This document shows, in pieces, positions 1,359 through 12,387 of a stretch of 64,000 nucleotides of DNA. Source of the DNA: an uncultured Chitinophaga sp. GTDB lineage: Bacteria; Bacteroidota; Bacteroidia; Chitinophagales; Chitinophagaceae. A program made the translations under genes and the position numbers. The notes beneath the pieces are model-generated. The model worked only from the letters and a program-made list of their open reading frames with translations. It was not told where the DNA came from and did not search any database. The stretch's first letter is position 1, and each line of letters opens with the position of its first letter. The stretch is from NCBI RefSeq assembly GCF_946479755.1, contig NZ_CAMLHC010000014.1:62001-126000 (forward strand). Reading direction: 5' to 3'.

Positions 1359-2768
1359 CTATAAATCTTTCAGCACCTGCACCGCCGCATGATACCCGCA
1401 CATGCCATGTACACCGCCACCCGGCGGCGTGGAGGCGGAACAGAGGTAGATGCCTTTGGCGCTGGTACGATAAGGCGATGCACTCAGTACCGGTCGGGTG
1501 AACAGCTGGCCGATATCAATAGCGCCTCCGTTGATATCTCCACCGATGTAGTTGGCGTTGTATGCCTGCATGTCCGCTGCGTTCATGACATGCCGGCCGA
1601 TGATGCGCTTTTTAAAACCCGGTGCAAAACGCTCTACCTGGTCCTCGATGATGGCAGTCATATCTGTGGTGTTACCATTGGGAACATGACAGTATCCCCA
1701 TGCGGTATGCTGCCCTTGCGGTGCACGCGTTTGATCGAACAGGCTCTGTTGGGCGAAAAGCACAAAGGGCTTTGGTGAGATCTCATTTTTCCAGTTGGTG
1801 CGTTCCGCCTGTGCAATTTCCGCAAAAGTATTCCCCAAATGAACAGTACCGGCTTGCCGGCATTCCGCATTGGTAAAAGGTACAGGCCCGTCGAGCGCCC
1901 AGTCAACTTTAAAAACGCCGGGGCCATAACGGTAACGACCTAACGCTTTTGCGTAACGGGTGCTTAACCGGTGCCCCGCCATGGAGAGAAGCTGCCGGGG
2001 CGAAACATCCAGCATCAACACTTTCGCCGGCGGCAGCTGGTCAACGTTATCTACCGTGACGCCTGTTTCGATCTTCCCGCCGAGCGACAGGAAGTACGCC
2101 GCCATGGCATCTGCTATGCCTTGTGAACCACCTTTTACCAACGGCCATCCGGCCACATGGCCTGCGGCGCTTAGTATCATGCCGATAGCTGCGCTGGAAA
2201 GATAGTGAAACGGCAACATGGAATGCGCAGCCATACCGGCCCACAACCCTTTGGCAGCGTTTGTACGGAAACGTTTGGCCACAGCCTCGGCAGACCGCAG
2301 GGCAGTCAGCCCGAAACGCGCCATCAGCCAGGGATGCCTCGGGAAATGAAACGGCGCCAGGATATCCCCGCTCAGTTCATTCCAATGCTCCACCACCGGC
2401 CCCACCAGGTCAGCGTAAGCAGCAGCATCAGCCCCCAGGGCAGCGGCGGTGTCCGCAACACTGCCCCGCAGTACGGCAGCACTGCCGTCATCAAACGGAT
2501 GCGCGGCCGCTATGTGCGGATATATCAGCTCAAGGCCATAGTCCTGCAAGGACAGCTCCCTGAAGAACGGCGACATGATCAGCATGGGATGTATAGCGGA
2601 ACAGACATCATGACGAAAACCAGGCAACGTCAGCGCTTTGGTACGCATGCCTCCGCCCACAGTATCCCGGGCCTCCAGCACCAGCACCTGTAACCCCTGC
2701 TGCTGCAGGGTAATAGCGGCCGCCAGTCCGTTAGGCCCCGCTCCTACGACTATTGCATCATAACTCAT
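1359..2768 (-). CDS. FAD-dependent oxidoreductase, phytoene-desaturase-like
   Basis: The 469-residue protein starts with a Rossmann dinucleotide-binding motif (GAGPNG, residues 9-14) and an acidic end to the second strand (VLEARDTVGGG), and ends with the FAD-binding signature GIYLCSASTPPGGGVHGMCGY characteristic of COG1233, a family of carotenoid desaturases and many uncharacterised amine or retinol oxidases. There is no signal peptide, so it should be cytoplasmic. Its start codon overlaps the stop of the molybdoenzyme gene by four bases, so the two are translationally coupled, and it is the last gene of the operon. No carotenoid gene is nearby, so a role in carotenoid synthesis is unlikely; the substrate is unknown. 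Confidence 0.85.
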   Translation of the reverse strand: MSYDAIVVGAGPNGLAAAITLQQQGLQVLVLEARDTVGGGMRTKALTLPGFRHDVCSAIHPMLIMSPFFRELSLQDYGLELIYPHIAAAHPFDDGSAAVLRGSVADTAAALGADAAAYADLVGPVVEHWNELSGDILAPFHFPRHPWLMARFGLTALRSAEAVAKRFRTNAAKGLWAGMAAHSMLPFHYLSSAAIGMILSAAGHVAGWPLVKGGSQGIADAMAAYFLSLGGKIETGVTVDNVDQLPPAKVLMLDVSPRQLLSMAGHRLSTRYAKALGRYRYGPGVFKVDWALDGPVPFTNAECRQAGTVHLGNTFAEIAQAERTNWKNEISPKPFVLFAQQSLFDQTRAPQGQHTAWGYCHVPNGNTTDMTAIIEDQVERFAPGFKKRIIGRHVMNAADMQAYNANYIGGDINGGAIDIGQLFTRPVLSASPYRTSAKGIYLCSASTPPGGGVHGMCGYHAAVQVLKDL

Positions 2769-3976
2769 CTGAATTTCTCCGGTTTAAATAAAACAGTACC
2801 ATCTCTTTGTATGATCCATGCGGTAACAGGGTTCAGATGATACCCTCCCATATCCGTGCCACGGGCATTTGTCAGTTGCTGCAGCGTGGGTTGAATATAT
2901 CCGGTGTCATCCACTACCCTGCTCATGATCTCGGTGTTCTGGCCGTCCCAGCGCCAGAGATAACGAAAATAAGTATGCGCCTTGTCCAGCACCGGCTCCT
3001 GCAAAACGGCCATGTTCCAGTGCCGCCCGGCATCGGTACTCACCTCCACCCGGCTCACCTTTCCCCGCCCGCTCCAGGCAATACCCCGGATCTCTATCCA
3101 ACCGCGCATGATCTGCTGCGGGTAACTGGGATAGGTAATAATAGAACGGGCATCCATATCGAAACTGAACTGCCGGATCTTCCCGCCCCTGATCGTCTCC
3201 GTGTATTTGGATGTCTCCTCCCGCGTCATAAAAGGCTGATCGGAAAGCTCAATACGCCTGATCCATTTTACATTCGTATTGCCCTCCCATCCCGGCAGGA
3301 ACAGCCGCGCAGGATAACCCTGCTGCGGCCGGATCGCCTCCCCGTTTTGCGCGTACGCGATCATGGCATCCTGCCAGCCTTTGCTGACGGGGATACTACG
3401 CGTCATCACGGCCGCGTCGGAGCCTTCCACCAGAAACCACGTAGCCTTAGGACTCACCCCTACTTCTCGGAACAAAGTACTGAGCATTACGCCGGTCCAC
3501 TCGCTCTGGCTCGTCAATCCGCATATCTCCTGCGGCGTCATGGTCTCTTTTCCTGTCCTGAAGTTACCGGAACATTCGATAAAAGCGATACGCGACAACG
3601 CCGGAAACCGCTTCAGGTCCCTTAAGGTGAAGACAGTAGGCCTTTCCACCATACCGTGGACCAGCAACTCGTACTTATCAGGATCTATATTGGGAACCCC
3701 ATTGTGGCTCCTTTCAAAGTGCAGGTCCGACGGTGTAATGATGCCGTAAAAATCCTGCAGCGGCGACCGGGCAGAGATGTCTGAAGCTTTTTTCTCCGGC
3801 CGCTCAAAAGGCGAACGGCTCCCCAGTTTGCCCACCGGCACGCCAGGCGTTTTTGTCGGGTCCGCCGGGGCCACCGATGGTGACTGCTGCGCAGACACAC
3901 CGGGCATCAACGCTCCCAGCGCCGACACTGCCGCTGCCCGTAGTAATGTCCTTCGCCCGATCTTGTCCTTCTTCAT
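2765..3976 (-). CDS. Tat-exported sulfite oxidase/SoxC-type molybdopterin enzyme
   Basis: The 403-residue protein begins with a twin-arginine signal (GRRTLLRAAAVSALGAL, cut near AQQ at residue 30), so it should fold in the cytoplasm with its molybdenum cofactor and be exported to the periplasm. The oxidoreductase molybdopterin domain spans about residues 70-270, with the molybdenum-ligand cysteine C135 in FIECSGN, and a Mo-co dimerisation domain follows (about 280-400). The ECSGN form is that of sulfite dehydrogenases and SoxC. Together with the cytochrome c gene 11 bases upstream it looks like a two-subunit periplasmic dehydrogenase (molybdoenzyme + electron acceptor). No soxXYZAB genes are in view, so the substrate could be sulfite or another sulfur compound. 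Confidence 0.85.
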   Translation of the reverse strand: MKKDKIGRRTLLRAAAVSALGALMPGVSAQQSPSVAPADPTKTPGVPVGKLGSRSPFERPEKKASDISARSPLQDFYGIITPSDLHFERSHNGVPNIDPDKYELLVHGMVERPTVFTLRDLKRFPALSRIAFIECSGNFRTGKETMTPQEICGLTSQSEWTGVMLSTLFREVGVSPKATWFLVEGSDAAVMTRSIPVSKGWQDAMIAYAQNGEAIRPQQGYPARLFLPGWEGNTNVKWIRRIELSDQPFMTREETSKYTETIRGGKIRQFSFDMDARSIITYPSYPQQIMRGWIEIRGIAWSGRGKVSRVEVSTDAGRHWNMAVLQEPVLDKAHTYFRYLWRWDGQNTEIMSRVVDDTGYIQPTLQQLTNARGTDMGGYHLNPVTAWIIQRDGTVLFKPEKFR

Positions 3977-3987
3977 ACATTGACTGT

Positions 3988-4524
3988 TTATCTTACTTCA
4001 TTACCACCGCGCCGGTCATCGTTTACATACAGCTTACGGGCCGGCATTTCAACGGACGGCAGCGTATAGGCGTTGATGATAGTATTACTATCGATGACCT
4101 TGTTGCTGCTCAGCAAAAACGCTGTCAGATGATACACCTCCTCGTTGCTCAGCGTGCCGGGCGCATTGAACGGCATCGCCCTGCGGATATAGTCGAACAA
4201 CGTGGTGGCATAGGGCCAGTAATTGCCGATAGCTTTTACATGGGCCGTATCTCCCATCGGCGCCACCAAACGGTAAGCCGCCACTTCTGTCCCTGTCGGA
4301 CCGTGACAGGGAGCACATTTGGCCAAAAAAATAGTGCGGCCGGCCGCTGTATGTCCCTCGCCGGGTGGAAGCCCCTTGCCGTCAGGAGCGATCGATATGT
4401 TCACCGAATCTGTTTCCCGCTGCGTGGCTGGCCTTCCGAAGCCGAACCGCTCCGGGGCCGCAGGCCTGGTATGACAAGCCACCGCGCTCACCCCTATCAT
4501 CATCACTGTTAATACACTCCTCAT
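3988..4524 (-). CDS. c-type cytochrome, SoxD/sulfite dehydrogenase subunit type
   Basis: The 178-residue protein has a short hydrophobic signal ending in a cysteine (C17, VSAVAC), consistent with a periplasmic lipoprotein. One haem is attached at CAPCH (C70, C73, H74). The distal methionine is probably M117 in YIRRAMPF, and the preceding NYWPYATTLFDYI is the usual wording of SoxD-like and sulfite-dehydrogenase cytochromes. It probably takes electrons from the molybdoenzyme encoded directly downstream and passes them toward the respiratory chain, perhaps through the DoxX-like membrane proteins encoded just upstream. The partner assignment is from gene order. Confidence 0.85.
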   Translation of the reverse strand: MRSVLTVMMIGVSAVACHTRPAAPERFGFGRPATQRETDSVNISIAPDGKGLPPGEGHTAAGRTIFLAKCAPCHGPTGTEVAAYRLVAPMGDTAHVKAIGNYWPYATTLFDYIRRAMPFNAPGTLSNEEVYHLTAFLLSSNKVIDSNTIINAYTLPSVEMPARKLYVNDDRRGGNEVR

Positions 4525-4529
4525 CTGTT

Positions 4530-6179
4530 CTAATATTTCCCCGCCTGCAAGGACGACGGTGTAAGCGCATAGCGCCTGTCTACCCGGTCCAGCACCACGT
4601 ATAACCTGTTCCTGTTTTCATCGGTACCGGTAAGGATAACGCGACTGCCGTCTGTCGTATGGTACTGCACTACAAAACGATGACGCTTTTCGTTTTTGGG
4701 CGCCGCTGCATAGTCCCGCTTCCGGCGGGCAGACAAAGCGATGGACGCTATCTTCCCATACTCGTCCCCGATATTTTTTCTGGCGGCAGCCGGTATCCAG
4801 TCTTCCTGCTGCCCCTCGCCTTTATCGTTGCGTGTAGCCGACGGCGTTTTATCGTTACCGAGGTTTACATCGGTTCCGCCGTCACCACCTACACCAGCGG
4901 TCCTGTTACGCCGGTCGGGGATGGCTTTGTATTTGTCTTCGAGGTATAACGTATGCTCCACTTCGTCGGCATAATAATGAAAAGCCCGCTGGCCGCCGGC
5001 CAGGCCGGTGATCTCAAAGGTACGGTTCACATCCCGCTGCGGATCACCGCCACCATTGGACAAGTCCAGCGGATGCGGCTTATTCACCCGGAAAGTAAAA
5101 GTAGACCAGTTCTCGAAAGTGGCTTCCTGCCATCGCACGGTGTCCAGCGGATTGTAGGGAATCACCTGGTCGTTGATACGAAACTCCGTCACGTTGTAGT
5201 TGCCGCGAAGCACCTTTACTCCCGCCACCGCCGGCTGCTTGTAAGGGTCATACAGGAAATTGATCAGCTGCAGATAAAACAGCACGCCCAGGAAAAGGAA
5301 GATGGTAAAAGACTTGAGACCTATGCGCAATGCATTGCCTGCTTTATTAAACACCGGGTAATAATTCACCGGCACCGTCAACCGCTCCCGCACCAGCAAC
5401 CGGTAGACGTTCGGCACATCCTGTATCAACAGGAAAGCCGCCAGCAACACAAAATAGCTGCTGTAGACATGCACACCGCCGTCATACGCAAAATTGACGT
5501 ACACAATATCTCCCAACGCGGCGGCCAGCAATATGGCCCCCAGTGTAGTAGTCTTGCGGAAGAACAATAACGTGCCTGCCGCCACTTCTACCACCCCCGC
5601 AAAAATCTGGTACCACGGTACAATACCGATCGACAACCAATAGATCTTCTGCGCCGTCAGGTCCCCAAAGTTCGTATTCAACACGCCCAGGGAAGGATAC
5701 GGCATCTGCACCGGCAACAGCTTGGTGAACCCGAAGCCGATGATACCGATACCGGCCCGGTAACGCACCACTACCCTTAGCCAGTAATACAGGTCGAAGT
5801 ATTCCGCCCGCTCCGTTTTACGCAGCTTCACAATCCACGTCCACAACAAACCGCCAGCGGTGGCTATCAACGCAGTGGTGATCCAGTTGGCGTACCCCAG
5901 CAGTGAAGTACCAAAAATTTTGTTGCCAAAAAAATTAATACCGGAACCAAACCGCGCAATATCATACAGGTCCCGGTAGTTGAGGTGGCGCCAGTCCAGC
6001 GCAATCAGCTGGGTATACCACTCCGGTGTATTCGGTATCGAAATAGCGATAAAAAAGATAAACGCTATGCGGAACAATATCTTCTCATAGCCTTTCCAGG
6101 CAGTCTTTACAGGCGACGGCACCGCTTTCGCCACGGGCGCTGTCTCCTGTAAAACAGTGGCTACTGTTTCCATGTTCAA
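4530..6179 (-). CDS. DoxX-like integral membrane protein with a large C-terminal domain
   Basis: The 549-residue protein has several membrane segments in its first 300 residues, including the DoxX-type stretch WLRVVVRYRAGIGIIGFGF near residue 135, and then a soluble domain of about 240 residues with no cysteines. The next gene upstream (6193-7545) encodes a paralogue with the same layout. This copy has an extra polar insert (about residues 425-495) rich in Gly, Asp, Lys and Arg in the soluble domain. DoxX/DoxD proteins include the membrane subunit of archaeal thiosulfate:quinone oxidoreductase, so a quinone-linked role beside a sulfite-dehydrogenase-like pair is reasonable but inferred. Confidence 0.75.
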   Translation of the reverse strand: MNMETVATVLQETAPVAKAVPSPVKTAWKGYEKILFRIAFIFFIAISIPNTPEWYTQLIALDWRHLNYRDLYDIARFGSGINFFGNKIFGTSLLGYANWITTALIATAGGLLWTWIVKLRKTERAEYFDLYYWLRVVVRYRAGIGIIGFGFTKLLPVQMPYPSLGVLNTNFGDLTAQKIYWLSIGIVPWYQIFAGVVEVAAGTLLFFRKTTTLGAILLAAALGDIVYVNFAYDGGVHVYSSYFVLLAAFLLIQDVPNVYRLLVRERLTVPVNYYPVFNKAGNALRIGLKSFTIFLFLGVLFYLQLINFLYDPYKQPAVAGVKVLRGNYNVTEFRINDQVIPYNPLDTVRWQEATFENWSTFTFRVNKPHPLDLSNGGGDPQRDVNRTFEITGLAGGQRAFHYYADEVEHTLYLEDKYKAIPDRRNRTAGVGGDGGTDVNLGNDKTPSATRNDKGEGQQEDWIPAAARKNIGDEYGKIASIALSARRKRDYAAAPKNEKRHRFVVQYHTTDGSRVILTGTDENRNRLYVVLDRVDRRYALTPSSLQAGKY

Positions 6180-6192
6180 TGATGTTAGAAGT

Positions 6193-7545
6193 TTATAATC
6201 TGAGTTTCCTTAAACGACCATCCCCTTTGGCGGCTTCTTCCAGCAGATATTTTTTGGGGAGCTTGTCCAACACCACATACACCGAGTCTCTGGCAGCGGT
6301 GATACCCGCCAGCACCACCCTGTCTGCCGCCGGCCTGCTGTACTGTAGCACAAACACATCATGCTGATAATGCGGGTTCCGGTTGCTGAGCAACAACTGC
6401 TGATGTACACTGTCTATAACATAACTGTAATAGTGCCTGCCATTAGTGCCCTCCGACTCATATCTTTTATCGGCATCTGCTTTCGGCACCAGGTGCGCAT
6501 TATTGCTATCCACCACTACCGGCTCGCCGGAACGGATACTCAGCGTGTTCCATTCCTCGAACACCACGTTCTGCCAGCGTTTAGGATGCGAAGGCGCATA
6601 AGCTACGGTATCACTGTTAAGCACATACGTACTGACATTGTACAATCCGGCGGCAGCAGGCAATCCCTTCGCCGTCGGATATTGATAAGGATCTTTCCGC
6701 GCACCTATGCCGGTTTTGATACCATAGATCAACACAAAAAAAAGCACAAAGGCGGACTTCAGTACCACCCGCACCACTTTCCAGCGACCGGCAAATGCGG
6801 GCCGAAAGACATTCGGCGCCGTGGGCAACTGCAAAATCAACAACTGCACCACCCGCAGCAGATCGAAGCTGAAAACGAACAGCGCCAGCGTAATCAGGTA
6901 AAGGCTGTACACCGTATCACCTCCTTCATAAGCCAGGTTAGACATAAAAATGTTCCCGCAAAATACCAGGAAGATAAAAGCGGCGATGGAAGCCGTTTTC
7001 CTGTTCAGCAACAATAGCCCGATCACGATCTCCACCAACCCAAGGAATAACTCATACGAGGGTACGATACCCAGACTAAGCGAAAACAGTTTCCATCGGT
7101 TAAAGGCGCCATAAGGTGTATTCAGGCTGCTCAGCGAAGGATACGGGGCCTGCATGGGAAAGAATTTAATAAAACCGTAGGCCAGGATGGCCAGCGCCAG
7201 CCGGTACCGCACCAGTACCCGCAACCAGTAGTACAGTTGATGGTAATTGTCTGTGCGGCCAGCATCGCGATAAGTCCATAACAGTCCGACCACTACCGCT
7301 ATCCCGAAGAGAATTCCCCAGTCGGAGAATCCGGCCGGACCAGCGGTAAAGCGGGTGGTGTAGCGGGCCAGGTTGAAAATGTCCTGGTAAGCCAACCCGC
7401 TCCAGTCAACGGTGCCCAGGTAACTGTAAAACTTCCAGTCCAGCGGTAGCACCTGCAACAGCAGGTAAACGAACAGTATCCGGAAGGCTATTTTCTCCGG
7501 CGCTTTCCAGCGGCTTTCACCGCCTGTTGGTGAAGTAATACGCAT
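6193..7545 (-). CDS. DoxX-like integral membrane protein, paralogue of the next gene
   Basis: The 450-residue protein shares its whole layout with the downstream 549-residue protein: an early hydrophobic segment, the motif WLRVLVRYRLALAILAYGFIKFFPMQAPYPSL (shown in shorter form as RYRLALAILAYGF), further membrane helices to about residue 300, and a C-terminal soluble domain with a matching NVSTY...W..V.FEEW pattern. It lacks the polar insert of its sister. It sits between susD (21 bases upstream) and the sister gene (13 bases downstream). A heterodimer of the two would be a natural guess. No cofactor-binding motif is apparent in either. Confidence 0.75.
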   Translation of the reverse strand: MRITSPTGGESRWKAPEKIAFRILFVYLLLQVLPLDWKFYSYLGTVDWSGLAYQDIFNLARYTTRFTAGPAGFSDWGILFGIAVVVGLLWTYRDAGRTDNYHQLYYWLRVLVRYRLALAILAYGFIKFFPMQAPYPSLSSLNTPYGAFNRWKLFSLSLGIVPSYELFLGLVEIVIGLLLLNRKTASIAAFIFLVFCGNIFMSNLAYEGGDTVYSLYLITLALFVFSFDLLRVVQLLILQLPTAPNVFRPAFAGRWKVVRVVLKSAFVLFFVLIYGIKTGIGARKDPYQYPTAKGLPAAAGLYNVSTYVLNSDTVAYAPSHPKRWQNVVFEEWNTLSIRSGEPVVVDSNNAHLVPKADADKRYESEGTNGRHYYSYVIDSVHQQLLLSNRNPHYQHDVFVLQYSRPAADRVVLAGITAARDSVYVVLDKLPKKYLLEEAAKGDGRLRKLRL

Positions 7546-7566
7546 AACAGTAATTATTTTGGATGA

Positions 7567-8922
7567 TCAATAACCGGGATTCTGCGTGAGCCTGCCTTTA
7601 GACAACAGGACTTCCTGCGCCGGAATGGGAAACAGGTACTTTTTAGTGTCTGTCACCCCCAGCACGGCAGCAGCGCGGTTGGTCCTCACCAGGTCAAACC
7701 AGCGATGCGGCTCAAAGGCAAACTCGAACCTTCTTTCGTTTTCTATCGCCAGCAGCACTTCCGCTTTTGTGGTACCTGTATAATCCGCAAGTCCTGCCCT
7801 GCTGCGTACGGCATTGAGCGGTATCAGCGCTTCAGTGGTTTTGCCCTGTTGTGCCAGCGCCTCTGCATAGATCAGGTACAACTCCGCGATGCGGATAATA
7901 TAGGCCGGATCTGTGGCAGGGCTGCGATAGTAAAGATTACCATACCAAAGACCGGCAGACGTTCTGGCTACCAGCGCCTTGCGGTTGCCGCCAATGGCAG
8001 CGTCATTCACCAGCGTGATAAAAGCATCGGCAGGCGCCCATTGACGGGTACCGCCATTGGCCGGAGGCTGCCAGCTGTTACGGTGGCTGTTGGTGTAAGT
8101 AGCGCTATAGGACAGCTCAAAGACGCTTTCCCTGGTAGCGACCGTACTGGCCGGGGAAAAGAAAGCGGCATAGGGCTGTACCAGCTGATAGTTCTTTTGG
8201 TCGGCCAGCACTTTGGCAGCATAACCGGCCGCTTCGCTCCATTGACCACGGTACAGATAATAGCGCGCTTTCAGCGCCCACACCGTCTCCTGGTTGATCC
8301 TGACGGGATTGGCGGACGCCGGTGCTTTCAGCAGCGGCTCGGCCGCATTCAGGTCTGCCAACGCCTGCGCATATACGGCGTCCTGGTTGCGCTGCTCTAC
8401 GTTGTCTTTATCGGCCGTTGTCAGCGTAGGCGTCAACGTGATCTGCACATTCCCCCATGTTCTCGCCAGATCGAAATAGCCCAGTGCACGGATGGCCAGC
8501 GCCTCTCCCACGATCTGGTTTTTATCATCGGCGGAGAAGGTGGCATCGTTTACGCCCGGCACTTTGGTAATGACGTGGTTGGCACTGTTGATGGTGGCAT
8601 AGATGGCCGACCACACCGTGGCCAGGTTGCCGTTGTCCGCCTGGATATTATGCGTAATAAACTGTTGTATGACCGATTGGGAACCGGTCCACTGCACATT
8701 ATCCCCGGGCAGGTAACCGAATGTCTGGAACAGGCTGCCGTAGTAACCGTCGGCGGACAGCTTACGGTAAGTGCCCCGCAACGCAGTTTGCGCAGAGGTT
8801 TTGTCAGTGATGGTCTGGTCGTCGGAGACGAAGTCTTTGGGTTTTACATCGAGGAACTTTCCGCAGGAGACGGCCAGCACTGCCCACAAGAGGACTAAAT
8901 GATATCGGAGTAGTTGTTTCAT
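7567..8922 (-). CDS. SusD/RagB-family outer-membrane lipoprotein
   Basis: The 451-residue protein starts with a lipoprotein signal (LLWAVLAVSCG, lipidated Cys at residue 20), followed by a TPR-like SusD fold: FLDVKPKDF near the N-terminus, the ALAIRALGYFDLARTWG helix pair near 140-160, and a C-terminal RSRAGL...ENERRFEFAFEPHRWFDLVRT block that is diagnostic for the family. SusD proteins form the surface lid of a SusC transporter and capture substrate outside the cell. It is 11 bases from susC. Nothing in the sequence gives the ligand, and the operon has no glycoside hydrolase, so a glycan ligand should not be assumed. Confidence 0.93.
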   Translation of the reverse strand: MKQLLRYHLVLLWAVLAVSCGKFLDVKPKDFVSDDQTITDKTSAQTALRGTYRKLSADGYYGSLFQTFGYLPGDNVQWTGSQSVIQQFITHNIQADNGNLATVWSAIYATINSANHVITKVPGVNDATFSADDKNQIVGEALAIRALGYFDLARTWGNVQITLTPTLTTADKDNVEQRNQDAVYAQALADLNAAEPLLKAPASANPVRINQETVWALKARYYLYRGQWSEAAGYAAKVLADQKNYQLVQPYAAFFSPASTVATRESVFELSYSATYTNSHRNSWQPPANGGTRQWAPADAFITLVNDAAIGGNRKALVARTSAGLWYGNLYYRSPATDPAYIIRIAELYLIYAEALAQQGKTTEALIPLNAVRSRAGLADYTGTTKAEVLLAIENERRFEFAFEPHRWFDLVRTNRAAAVLGVTDTKKYLFPIPAQEVLLSKGRLTQNPGY

Positions 8923-8933
8923 TAGTCAGGATT

Positions 8934-11900
8934 TTAAAGGGTGAGATTGATGCCTGCCTGTACGCTGCGGGGCTGCGGAGGCGTGCCGAGGTCCAGCCCC
9001 TGTACGGTTTGAATGGAGGTCACATTGGCCTCCGGGTCCGGGCCGGTGTAATTGGTCAGCAACCACAGGTTACTACCGGTCACGTACACACGCAATTGAT
9101 TCATGTGCAGCCGGCCGGTAACGTTCTTTGGTACGGTATAACTCAGGGTGACCGATTTCAGTCGCAGGAAAGAACCATCTTCGAGGAAACGGCTGTTCTG
9201 ATCGATGGTGTAATTCAGGCCATAAGCGGTGAGCCGCGGCACGTCGGTCACGTCACCGGGCTTCTGCCAGCGGTTCAGCTGATCGGCCACCAACACCCTG
9301 TTGGCATCGCGGGTACCGCCGCCTTCGCCGAAGAACTTGTTCAGGTTATACACTTCGTTTCCGTACTGAAAGGAGAAAAGCACGTTCAGGTCGAAACCTT
9401 TCCAGGAGAAAGTGTTGCTGAAGCCGCCGAAGAAGTCAGGCATCGCATTGCCCATCACCCGGCGGGCGGATACAGGAAGCTTGCCTTTCTCTGCGCCTTC
9501 AAAAATCACGTCTCCCGTTTGGGGATCTACACCCAGCTGCTTATATAGCCAGAAAGAATACATGGACGATCCTTCCTGCATGATGATCCAGTCGCGGTTG
9601 TATTGATAAACAGGCGTCGGCAGCTTTTCTATGCGGTTTTTATTGCCGGAGATGGTGAGGCTGCTCGTCCACCGCAGTGCCTTGTTCGCAATATTGACGG
9701 TATTGATGCCTATCTCATACCCTTTGTTACTGATTTCACCGGCGTTGCTGTTGAGCGAACTGAAGCCGGTCATACCGGGAACGGGCAAACGCAGTAATAC
9801 GTTGCTGGTGTATTTATAATAAATATCAGCGGTAAGACTGATCCGGCCGTCGAACAGGCCCAGGTCGATCCCGGCGTTCGTTTGACTGGTACGTTCCCAT
9901 TGCAGGTTGTTATTGGACAGCTGTTGCGGGGCCGTTCCCGGCTGATCGCCGGAACTGCCATCGGGGTAACCGAAGCCGCCGCTCCACAGTCCCTGCGAGG
10001 CGAAGTTGTCGATACCGGCCTGGTTGCCGGTCACCCCGTAACTGGCCCTGATTTTAAGGTCGCTGATACGGGAATTGTTTTTCAGGAACGCTTCTTCTTT
10101 CACGCGCCAGGAGGCGCCCACCGCGGGAAAATAACCCCACCGGGTATCCTTCCCGAACTTGGACGAGCCATCTGCCCTGATGCTGGCCTCGAGGTAATAT
10201 TTACCGGCGTAGTTATAATCGATCCGGGAGAAAAACGAAGCAAGGTTCACTTTTGTCCATGTCTGGTTGGAAGTACGTGTAGCCGCTGCCGATATATCCT
10301 TGTAGGCATTGCTGGCGAAGCCGGTGCCCTGTGCCGAGGTGAGTGCAATGGTGTTGCTTTGCAGGGTATTGCCCACCAGCACGCCCAGGAAGTGGCTGGT
10401 CCCCAGCCGTTTTTTATAGGATAATGTCTGTTCGTTGATCCAGGCGGTGTTCTGTGTGATGGCTGAAGTGGCCAGCCCGTTGGTAGGCGCAGATCCCAGC
10501 TGGGTGAAGTTATTCCAGTATTCCGATTCGTTGTAGTTATTATAGTCCAGGCTGAAAGTGCTGCGGAACTTGAGATCAGGCAGGATGGCGGCATCGAGGT
10601 AGATATTACCGATGTAACGCAGACTGGTAGTGTTCACATCGTAGTTGTTGATGAGCACCTGCACGTTGTCGAAACCGGCCCATCTGGCGGGCGTACCGTC
10701 TGCGTTGAATTCCGGCAGATAGGTAGGGGTATGCAGCGCTGCCTGTAGCAGGCCACCCTGCGGGCCATCGCCGGCACGGCCCTGGTTGCGGTAACTGCGG
10801 GAGAAACTGTTGCTGGTCCCCACGCTGATGCGATCGTTCACGCGCTGGTCCAGGTTGAGTTTGAAATTCACCCGGTCGAATGACATCGGTCGCAGGATGG
10901 ATTCCTGTTTAGAAAAACCGCCGCCGATGTAATATTTCGTTTCCTTACTGCCGCCCGACAACGAGAGGTTATAGTTCTGTAATCCGGCGTGGCGGAAGAT
11001 TTCTCCCAGCCGGTCATACGTCTGTTGTTCGGAGGGCAGCCCGCGGGGCGCTGGTGTGGCTTCCGGACGGTCTGTTTTAGCACGGAACGGCTCTACCGCA
11101 TATTTTTTTCTGCCGGCCTCATCTCCGAGCGCTACGGCATCTGCATAAGAGTTGCGATAGAATTCGTTGATCAGTTCCGCGTGCTGCGGTCCGGTGGTCA
11201 GGTCCCAGAGCTGGGGCGCCCAGGCCACGCCGCCCGACACATCTACATTCAGACGGGATTTGGTATTGTAGTTTCCTCTTTTGGTGGTGACGATCACCAC
11301 GCCATTGGCGCCGCGGGAGCCGTAAATGGCCGTAGCGCTGGCATCTTTCAGCACCTCTATATTTTCGATGTCCGCCGGGTTGAGATCGGCCAGCACGGAG
11401 GCACTGCGGCCGCCGGTGTTGACGGTCTGCAGGTTGGTGTTGTTGATAAACACGCCGTCTACAATATAAAGCGGGTTGTTGTCCGCATTGATAGAGGTGG
11501 TGCCTCTTACGCGAACAAATACGCCATCGCCGGGAACGCCGGTGTTGGAGTTGATCTGCACGCCGGCGGCGCGGCCCTGTAGCTGTGCATCGAAGCTGGC
11601 CACCGGTACGTTGGCCACGTCTGCGCCTTTAACGGATGAAATAGCGCTGGTGAGGTCGCGGCGTTTCTGCGTGCCGTAACCAACTACCACTACATCGTTC
11701 AATTGCTGGGAAAGCTCTGCCATCGCGATGTTGCCGGCATTGGACTTGTCCACGTATATCTCTTTCAACTGGTAACCCAATGCGGAGATCTGGTAAATTA
11801 CCGGTACTTTCTGGCCGGTACGGAAGAAAAAATCTCCCTGCCGGTTGGTCTGTACCTCGTGGGTGGTCCCTTTAATGTGTACAATGGCTCCCTCCAGCGG

Positions 11901-12056
11901 CTGTGATGTTTTTGCGTCGATGATTTTTCCGGAGAGCGAGATGTTGTGCTGTACCACAACACCCGATTTAGGTAAGAGCGTGTCCCTTCCCTGCTGCTGC
12001 GCCGGGGAAAGAAAGGGCAACAGCAGGCCTAAACTGCTTGCAATAGCAATTTTCAT
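8934..12056 (-). CDS. SusC/RagA-family TonB-dependent outer-membrane transporter
   Basis: The 1040-residue protein has a signal peptide (cut near SPAQ, residue 19), a carboxypeptidase-like beta-sandwich (about 40-120), the family hallmark VVVVGYGTQKRRDLT at the plug start, a plug with NNPLYIVDG and ATAIYGSRGANGVVIVTTK, and a 22-strand-type barrel ending in a short beta signal (VQAGINLTL). It is the first gene of the seven-gene unit and should import the operon's substrate using TonB energy. The Q-rich mature N-terminus carries no STN domain, so there is no sign of direct anti-sigma signalling; control is more likely at the palindrome about 300 bases upstream. Confidence 0.95.
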   Translation of the reverse strand: MKIAIASSLGLLLPFLSPAQQQGRDTLLPKSGVVVQHNISLSGKIIDAKTSQPLEGAIVHIKGTTHEVQTNRQGDFFFRTGQKVPVIYQISALGYQLKEIYVDKSNAGNIAMAELSQQLNDVVVVGYGTQKRRDLTSAISSVKGADVANVPVASFDAQLQGRAAGVQINSNTGVPGDGVFVRVRGTTSINADNNPLYIVDGVFINNTNLQTVNTGGRSASVLADLNPADIENIEVLKDASATAIYGSRGANGVVIVTTKRGNYNTKSRLNVDVSGGVAWAPQLWDLTTGPQHAELINEFYRNSYADAVALGDEAGRKKYAVEPFRAKTDRPEATPAPRGLPSEQQTYDRLGEIFRHAGLQNYNLSLSGGSKETKYYIGGGFSKQESILRPMSFDRVNFKLNLDQRVNDRISVGTSNSFSRSYRNQGRAGDGPQGGLLQAALHTPTYLPEFNADGTPARWAGFDNVQVLINNYDVNTTSLRYIGNIYLDAAILPDLKFRSTFSLDYNNYNESEYWNNFTQLGSAPTNGLATSAITQNTAWINEQTLSYKKRLGTSHFLGVLVGNTLQSNTIALTSAQGTGFASNAYKDISAAATRTSNQTWTKVNLASFFSRIDYNYAGKYYLEASIRADGSSKFGKDTRWGYFPAVGASWRVKEEAFLKNNSRISDLKIRASYGVTGNQAGIDNFASQGLWSGGFGYPDGSSGDQPGTAPQQLSNNNLQWERTSQTNAGIDLGLFDGRISLTADIYYKYTSNVLLRLPVPGMTGFSSLNSNAGEISNKGYEIGINTVNIANKALRWTSSLTISGNKNRIEKLPTPVYQYNRDWIIMQEGSSMYSFWLYKQLGVDPQTGDVIFEGAEKGKLPVSARRVMGNAMPDFFGGFSNTFSWKGFDLNVLFSFQYGNEVYNLNKFFGEGGGTRDANRVLVADQLNRWQKPGDVTDVPRLTAYGLNYTIDQNSRFLEDGSFLRLKSVTLSYTVPKNVTGRLHMNQLRVYVTGSNLWLLTNYTGPDPEANVTSIQTVQGLDLGTPPQPRSVQAGINLTL

Positions 12057-12084
12057 TATCTTTACTTTGGTATGAATAAAATAA

Positions 12085-12176
12085 GGCCGGTGCCAGTATT
12101 CACATACTGCACTGTAAAATGTCCCACAGCCTTGTTTGCCAGCCGGAACTGCTCCAACAGTTCCGGCTTTTTATTT
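12085..12176 (+). ncRNA. Candidate antisense small RNA opposite the susC leader
   Basis: On the strand opposite susC, within its leader, lies a small hairpin (CAGTAT, loop TCAC, ATACTG; 12094-12109) and then an intrinsic terminator. A terminator pointing away from susC with no protein gene before it suggests a short RNA antisense to the susC leader. Antisense RNAs at Sus loci are known in Bacteroides. I could not place a confident promoter, so the 5' end is a guess. Confidence 0.35.
12141..12176 (+). terminator. Intrinsic terminator in the susC leader, plus strand
   Basis: An 11-base-pair perfect stem (AGCCGGAACTG / CAGTTCCGGCT, loop of 6) is followed by TTTTTATTT. On the susC strand the same stem would form a leader hairpin without a following T run, but flanked by AATAAAA upstream. 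Confidence 0.7.
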
Positions 12177-12362
12177 CTTAATCTGAAATAGATTTAACAA
12201 CATCGGAAAACCGGGAAGGCTGATAAATCGCTTGATAAATAATGTATCATGGTGATTCCTGGTTGAGAACTTACGCTTGAAGGGCTATGCACGGTGGATG
12301 AAAGTTGATCCAAAGTGGCATACAGAAACGTGCCAGGGTACAATAATACAATATTTTTTCAC

Positions 12363-12387
12363 AAAGTCTACTAAAATTGTAGACTTT
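12363..12387 (-). promoter_or_regulatory. Palindromic operator overlapping the likely susC operon promoter
   Basis: Two 9-base arms, AAAGTCTAC and GTAGACTTT, form a perfect inverted repeat around 7 central bases. On the susC strand the right arm contains TAGACTTTG, a near match to the -7 box TAnnTTTG, and TTTG lies 18 bases before it, so a bound regulator would block RNA polymerase. It is 306 bases from the susC start. The rest of the 12057-12489 gap holds the antisense RNA candidate and the GNAT gene terminator. Confidence 0.6.

Follow-up and report, generated by a model that had tools for sequence, protein, structure and literature searches.

Why should a SusCD pair, a type of outer-membrane transporter mostly read as a glycan or peptide importer, head an operon that continues with membrane proteins and a sulfite-oxidase-type redox module? 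The question is raised by seven minus-strand genes (12056-1359) in a 64,000-nucleotide stretch of DNA from an uncultured Chitinophaga sp. (the window), whose nearest named relatives are Chitinophaga. An earlier note on this DNA had proposed that a sulfur-containing compound is taken up and oxidised in the periplasm. Sulfur as the theme of the operon is supported by our analysis, and we put the probability at roughly 70% that the operon is a sulfur-scavenging unit switched on by cysteine shortage. Most likely, it belongs to a cysteine-starvation regulon and would scavenge sulfur rather than supply food carbon or energy, because the operator and cysteine-codon leader found upstream of it also precede PhyH genes and a cysteine-biosynthesis operon, and the palindrome precedes metY. 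The substrate, the chemistry of the DoxX-like proteins and the response to cysteine are what we infer in this account.

The leader of the operon

A perfect palindrome with the core GTCTAC-N7-GTAGAC lies about 330 nucleotides (nt) upstream of susC (12363..12387, core 12366-12384, minus strand) and forms a putative operator, AAAGTCTAC-N7-GTAGACTTT, with similar sites in relatives. Since shuffled sequence gives a mean of 0.94 matches within two mismatches per window of this size, a single match is not unusual and the case for the palindrome rests on its conservation. This was assessed in 75 of 82 leader sequences (81 loci collected around doxA, as described below, plus the window, without L009, L010, L013, L031, L033, L055 and L057). 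At least 10 of the 12 core positions matched in 38 of the 75 leaders, compared with 0.6% of 1500 shuffles, and at least 9 matched in 56, compared with 8.9% of the shuffles. The sequence TATTATTG at 12341..12348 (minus strand) is a candidate -7 promoter element by its resemblance to the consensus; it is identical in seven of eight Chitinophaga-type leaders, the remaining one (L005) having TAATATTG.

Between the palindrome and susC sits a short open reading frame (ORF) ending in cysteine codons. In the window it reads MIHYLSSDLSAFPVFRCC followed by a stop codon (12194..12250, minus strand) and has two terminal Cys codons; its support is comparison with Chitinophaga relatives: at a conserved CGATGTT, six of seven have an ORF that ends in RCC, RC or RCW. 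In Mucilaginibacter (L016), for example, the ORF ends in ACMCCCCK before its stop. Such short ORFs, rich in codons for the regulated amino acid as in attenuators and defined here by at least three Cys among the last eight residues, were found in 34 of the 71 leaders with at least 150 nt of intergenic DNA (the window itself has two Cys), compared with 11 of 1420 leader shuffles. Among 327 other intergenic regions from these loci, 12 hold such an ORF, and some of the 12 precede PhyH genes (L043, by eye; L048), a PIG-L deacetylase gene (L043) or the susC of L031. Position was compared in the 56 leaders whose operator has 9 or more matches: 32 have such an ORF on the 3' side of the operator, one has it in a 5' stretch of equal length and one on the antisense strand. 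An operator of at least 10/12 or a three-Cys ORF is present in 54 of the 75 leaders, and both are present in 18.

Closer to susC, the leader is predicted to fold into a perfect 11-base-pair hairpin (hairpin 1; 12141..12168, minus strand) and a terminator-like hairpin followed by the T-rich ATTTTATT (12083..12133, minus strand), with a fold 3.6 standard deviations below that of shuffles (z -3.6). Eight Chitinophaga-type leaders share a terminator-like hairpin. Across these eight, both partners have changed in 6 of 30 predicted pairs, and five of the six pairs belong to the terminator hairpin's inner stem; the comparison was uncontrolled for relatedness. The 5' arm of hairpin 1 can pair with the 3' arm of the terminator, and a possible antiterminator can be drawn from this pairing; the minimum-energy fold holds both hairpins instead. 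The leader features are new relative to the first reading. They point to control by cysteine starvation, and would thus favor sulfur nutrition over respiration as the role of the operon.

The same signals at other sulfur genes

The palindrome was searched for with a loose pattern in three genomes and with a strict pattern in 117 genomes, using the reversed pattern as a control. The strict pattern matched at 17 places in 12 genomes (21 rows), compared with none for the control, and seven of the 17 places (L123, L126, L127, L130, L131, L134 and L135) have recognised sulfur or regulon genes, assigned partly by eye. Palindrome and Cys leader together stand upstream of PhyH-type dioxygenase genes at L097/L104, L083/L102, L123 and L127, three of which have an SDR gene alongside; PhyH and SDR may be a cytoplasmic pair, for desulfonation or for sulfate esters. 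At L155, the genes cysH-cysD-cysN-cysK-cysJ-cysI-cysG/tauE follow two palindromes (10/12 and 11/12) and a leader ORF, MFRSHAIQIMYISCCNKYCCC with its stop, and the same genome carries a SusCD-dox operon (L162). The palindrome, without a Cys leader, also precedes metY (L085/L103), and it is found upstream of cysG-tauE at L114. In addition, an operator of 10/12 and a Cys-containing ORF precede a TonB receptor gene adjoining assimilation genes at L159 and at the closely related L157 and L158 (the L158 receptor by eye), and a one-mismatch palindrome precedes a TlpA-YceI-MauG-TonB receptor operon at L101/L106 (L106:1634-7167, MauG-type di-haem), which is possibly a second sulfur-uptake operon. As for a regulator, a strict palindrome at L126 lies between a peroxiredoxin gene and a divergent Rrf2 regulator gene, and an Rrf2 gene is immediately upstream of sulfite-reductase genes in five of seven loci.

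Several further genes accompany these signals. PhyH genes with a Cys-rich leader ORF occur at L043 and L048 too, outside the palindrome searches. A 387-residue exported protein (L086; L102:9666-10829), with a Peptidase_C97 match below cut-off only, is encoded behind a palindrome-like site and the leader MNSAPPCFHFLSHNQQGYCCCR. An arrangement seen twice, at L128 and L138, has strict palindromes in front of genes for a fatty-acid hydroxylase/sterol-desaturase-like protein (Pfam for L128) and, by eye, a small CarboxypepD_reg-like protein. L130 and L131 have strict palindromes too, next to a NadA-like gene and the gene for a GAF-domain protein that resembles free methionine sulfoxide reductase (both by eye).

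Were the Cys-rich leader ORFs and the palindrome artefacts of composition, the operon would be under some unrelated control. The two Cys codons in the window, the weak recovery of terminators outside Chitinophaga and the weak control of the loose pattern are in keeping with that explanation, which we nevertheless consider highly improbable in view of the shuffle, position and antisense controls, the strict pattern with its empty reversed control, and the both-sided changes in hairpin pairs.

A conserved transporter core with an exchangeable sulfur-oxidising part

An alignment of 21 DoxA proteins, run against genome contigs, picked out 160 relatives, and the 80 best loci among them were retained; one Hymenobacter plasmid locus brought the set to 81, and L031, with no callable doxA, was left out of the synteny counts, which therefore refer to 80. 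In 78 of these, susC, susD and doxB lie on the same strand within 9 kilobases (kb) of doxA, the exceptions being L010 (a 3.8-kb contig) and L013. A soxC gene is present in 58 of the 80 loci, accompanied by cytC in 57, and none of these doxA-anchored loci has soxC without SusCD. Genera with the unit include Chitinophaga, Niastella, Mucilaginibacter, Pedobacter, Spirosoma, Runella, Siphonobacter, Dyadobacter and Hymenobacter. In Hymenobacter volaticus (L081), a 147-kb plasmid carries susC-susD-doxA-doxB near genes for carbonic anhydrase and bshB1; the annotation splits its susC into several pieces.

To avoid anchoring on doxA, we also searched 117 Chitinophagaceae genomes for soxC. A close soxC (at least 69% identity) was found in six. 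In each of them doxA lies within 4 kb of it, and susC is preceded by an operator of at least 10/12 and by a leader ORF whose last eight residues include two or more Cys. Four further genomes have distant matches (30-32%) only, and one of the six has such a match at another site as well. Six other genomes have doxA-doxB without a close soxC, and all six regions (L109-L114) carry an adjoining SusCD whose susC has an operator of at least 10/12 no more than about 520 nt upstream. Across the phylum, a close soxC was found in 3 of 395 genomes, two of them already in the Chitinophagaceae sample; these counts are not independent, as those two are among the six genomes of the soxC search, which share species with the doxA-anchored loci. 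In the third (L166), soxC-cytC lies next to a redoxin gene on a 6.4-kb contig without SusCD or Dox. With that one exception, the synteny supports the joint system suggested in the earlier note, SusCD and a sulfite-dehydrogenase-type module forming one conserved unit; had the redox genes never occurred with SusCD, the joint system would have been unlikely.

The module is nevertheless less constant than the transporter. Since 21 of the 22 loci without soxC extend about 9 kb or more beyond doxA, its absence is mostly real, and L113 and L114 encode a lactamase-fold and rhodanese protein with a twin-arginine-like start in place of cytC-soxC. Neighbors vary as well: the core adjoins a YeiH/UPF0324 carrier in 39 loci (PF03601; the score for TIGR00698, 'putative sulfate export', is below cut-off), and further neighbors are TPR and DUF1684 proteins together with a second SusCD, a carrier of the sodium:sulfate type (L078) and a MetY-type enzyme (L042). 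Because of this variation and the replacement at L113 and L114, the core is susC-susD-doxA-doxB and the sulfur-oxidising part is exchangeable, so that the redox module proposed as part of the system is usually joined to it, with soxC-cytC optional. Also beside the core are 22 cyanophycinase/S51 peptidase ORFs in 21 loci, a tested member scoring above the TIGR02069 cyanophycinase cut-off. These raise the prospect of an ordinary SusCD importing peptides or isopeptides, with Cys/Met peptides as the sulfur source, cut by the S51 peptidase of some relatives. Since the S51 gene lies outside the window operon and is missing from most loci, and since peptide import leaves DoxA/DoxB and SoxC unexplained, we think this quite unlikely.

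The window operon itself is compact. The seven co-directional genes, with gaps of 11, 21, 13 (19 if doxB starts at ATG), 5 and 11 nt in order and a 4-nt overlap of soxC and fad, were re-derived as first described, all on the minus strand. The first two, susC (8934..12056; TonB-linked outer-membrane transporter; TIGR04056, 807 bits against a cut-off of 368) and susD (7567..8922; outer-membrane lipoprotein; PF07980, PF14322), are adjacent and both score above curated cut-offs, as a SusCD transporter should. Pfam scanning of all seven operon genes, to which the scan was confined, matched no glycan-active family, which agrees with the earlier claim that no glycan-degrading enzyme is present and sets the operon apart from a polysaccharide utilisation locus. 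The last gene, fad (1359..2768), encodes a flavin adenine dinucleotide (FAD)-dependent oxidoreductase, amine-oxidase/CrtO-like by family models. A tRNA-Lys (ttt) gene lies directly downstream of the operon at 1208-1281.

The proteins encoded by doxA (6193..7545) and doxB (4530..6179, from a TTG at 6179; an ATG two codons further, at 6173, is an equally likely start) are paralogues with 35% identity. The label DoxX-like rests on the source annotation of relatives ('DoxX family protein'). No Pfam or NCBIfam model matched DoxA or DoxB of the window, DoxX models matched none of 21 DoxA proteins at E<=1, and alignment of DoxA with a PF07681 protein by hhalign gave a probability of 24. DoxA is predicted to combine helices in a membrane part with a lipocalin-like barrel at the C terminus (residues 295-431 of the model), a structure compatible with ligand binding and no more. 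Electron delivery through the DoxX proteins, as had been suggested, is not supported by any evidence. Two Siphonobacter loci (L019 and L035) have additional doxB-like ORFs inside the operon.

The soxC-like gene (2765..3976; PF00174, PF03404) encodes a Tat-type molybdoenzyme of the sulfite dehydrogenase family that scores 473.6 bits against TIGR04555 (cut-off 420), as expected of a SoxC-type sulfite dehydrogenase. The ECSGN, CAPCH and twin-arginine (GRRTLL) motifs reported earlier are all present; [EQ]C[SA]GNxR is kept in all 62 soxC ORFs of more than 300 residues in the loci set, and a twin-arginine pattern is found in 41 of them. The closest solved relative is 2xts, named sulfite dehydrogenase, which we take to be SoxC. 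Five residues after the molybdenum-ligand Cys the window enzyme has Arg, which aligns with Arg in the sulfite oxidase chain 2a9d and with Glu in 2xts, and which therefore, given the role generally ascribed to this Arg, favors free sulfite as the probable substrate. The neighboring cytC (3988..4524; ORF and Pfam) encodes a single-haem cytochrome c with one CXXCH, and has by eye a lipobox-like AVAC, although the lipobox pattern fits just 9 of 65 cytC ORFs. In the SoxCD sulfur dehydrogenase, the SoxD partner is di-haem. SoxY gave no match in eight of eight genomes, and the control genomes likewise gave none. The description of cytC and soxC as a redox module holds; their assignment to SoxC/SoxD is too narrow given the single haem motif and the Arg.

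These enzymes are central to an explanation along the lines of the earlier note, in which a SusCD-imported sulfur compound is used for energy or detoxified, SoxC/cytC oxidising sulfite and the DoxX-like proteins passing electrons to respiration. The TIGR04555 match with its cytochrome partner, the YeiH-type carrier annotated as a putative sulfate exporter and the solitary soxC-cytC of L166 are consistent with such a role. However, neither the Cys-codon leader and operator shared with cysteine biosynthesis nor the 22 loci without soxC fit it, and we judge it unlikely, if somewhat less so than peptide import.

A scheme for sulfur scavenging under cysteine control would run as follows. An Rrf2/CymR-type regulator, suggested by gene neighborhood, would act at the palindrome, and a ribosome short of Cys-tRNA would stall in the leader ORF, letting transcription pass the terminator. 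SusCD would then bring an organosulfur compound into the periplasm, where DoxA/DoxB and the FAD enzyme may help to release its sulfur and the SoxC-like enzyme with cytochrome c would convert sulfite to sulfate, the lactamase-fold and rhodanese protein taking that place at L113 and L114. Sulfite or sulfate could cross the inner membrane via carriers of the YeiH, TauE or sodium:sulfate type, which adjoin the operon in relatives, to be assimilated by CysHDN/IJ/K or MetY.

Several observations weigh against this scheme. Oxidising sulfite to sulfate and re-reducing it is wasteful for assimilation, YeiH carries an exporter annotation, and no sulfite-freeing periplasmic enzyme was identified among the operon and neighbor genes. 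The soxC-cytC of L166 stands alone, and its enzyme lacks Arg at the Cys+5 position and does not fit [EQ]C[SA]GNxR. In the leaders, 21 of 75 have neither an operator of at least 10/12 nor a three-Cys ORF, the window ORF falls under the three-Cys cut-off and draws its support from the alignment of relatives, L004 shows no Cys-ending ORF in that alignment, and a terminator scan gave candidates in only 16 of 43. Finally, the loose pattern gave 23 matches against 9 for its reversed control (7 against 5 in one genome), many palindrome matches adjoin genes without a clear sulfur link, and the palindrome is directly upstream of assimilation genes in one of seven loci checked (L155).

Relation to known systems

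If correct, the account of a conserved SusCD line controlled by cysteine would make sulfur nutrition a role of SusCD, growth on single organic sulfur sources would give a handle on the substrate, and the palindrome with its Cys-codon leader would be a signature by which the sulfur regulon could be mapped across a large bacterial group. A wider and more tentative proposal, which we hold to be possible though well short of even odds, is that many Bacteroidota have a cysteine-sensing regulon with its own class of Cys-codon attenuator, whose outer-membrane arm is a sulfur-nutrition SusCD line and whose DoxA/DoxB proteins (a membrane bundle with a lipocalin-like barrel) are a new kind of sulfur-releasing oxidoreductase.

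The operon resembles SusCD/RagAB importers and polysaccharide utilisation loci in its first two genes, and differs from them in having no glycan-active family match, in the membrane and redox genes that come next and in its cysteine-type leader. Its molybdoenzyme is like SoxC/SorA/SorT sulfite dehydrogenases in model score, molybdenum-ligand Cys, Tat-type start and cytochrome c neighbor, and unlike them in its single-haem partner and in its 2a9d-like Arg, where 2xts has Glu (Sox genes near relatives were not systematically searched). Control of cysteine metabolism by CymR/Rrf2 is known from Firmicutes, and the Rrf2-family genes beside sulfite-reductase genes recall it, binding to the palindrome being putative here. 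The leader recalls the mycobacterial polycysteine leader ORFs that Canestrari et al. 2020 (Mol. Microbiol. 114:93-108) reportedly describe before operons, cysteine-responsive according to the title. The likeness lies in short ORFs with runs of Cys codons before an operon, and the difference in the phylum, the long leader with the ORF behind a palindrome, and the terminator-like hairpin of the Chitinophaga group. In a search of the open-access literature, with result lists partly viewed, no publication turned up that brings these parts together. Each of them (SusCD, sulfite dehydrogenase, control by Rrf2, attenuation) is of a known kind, and it is their combination and their use in sulfur nutrition that look new.

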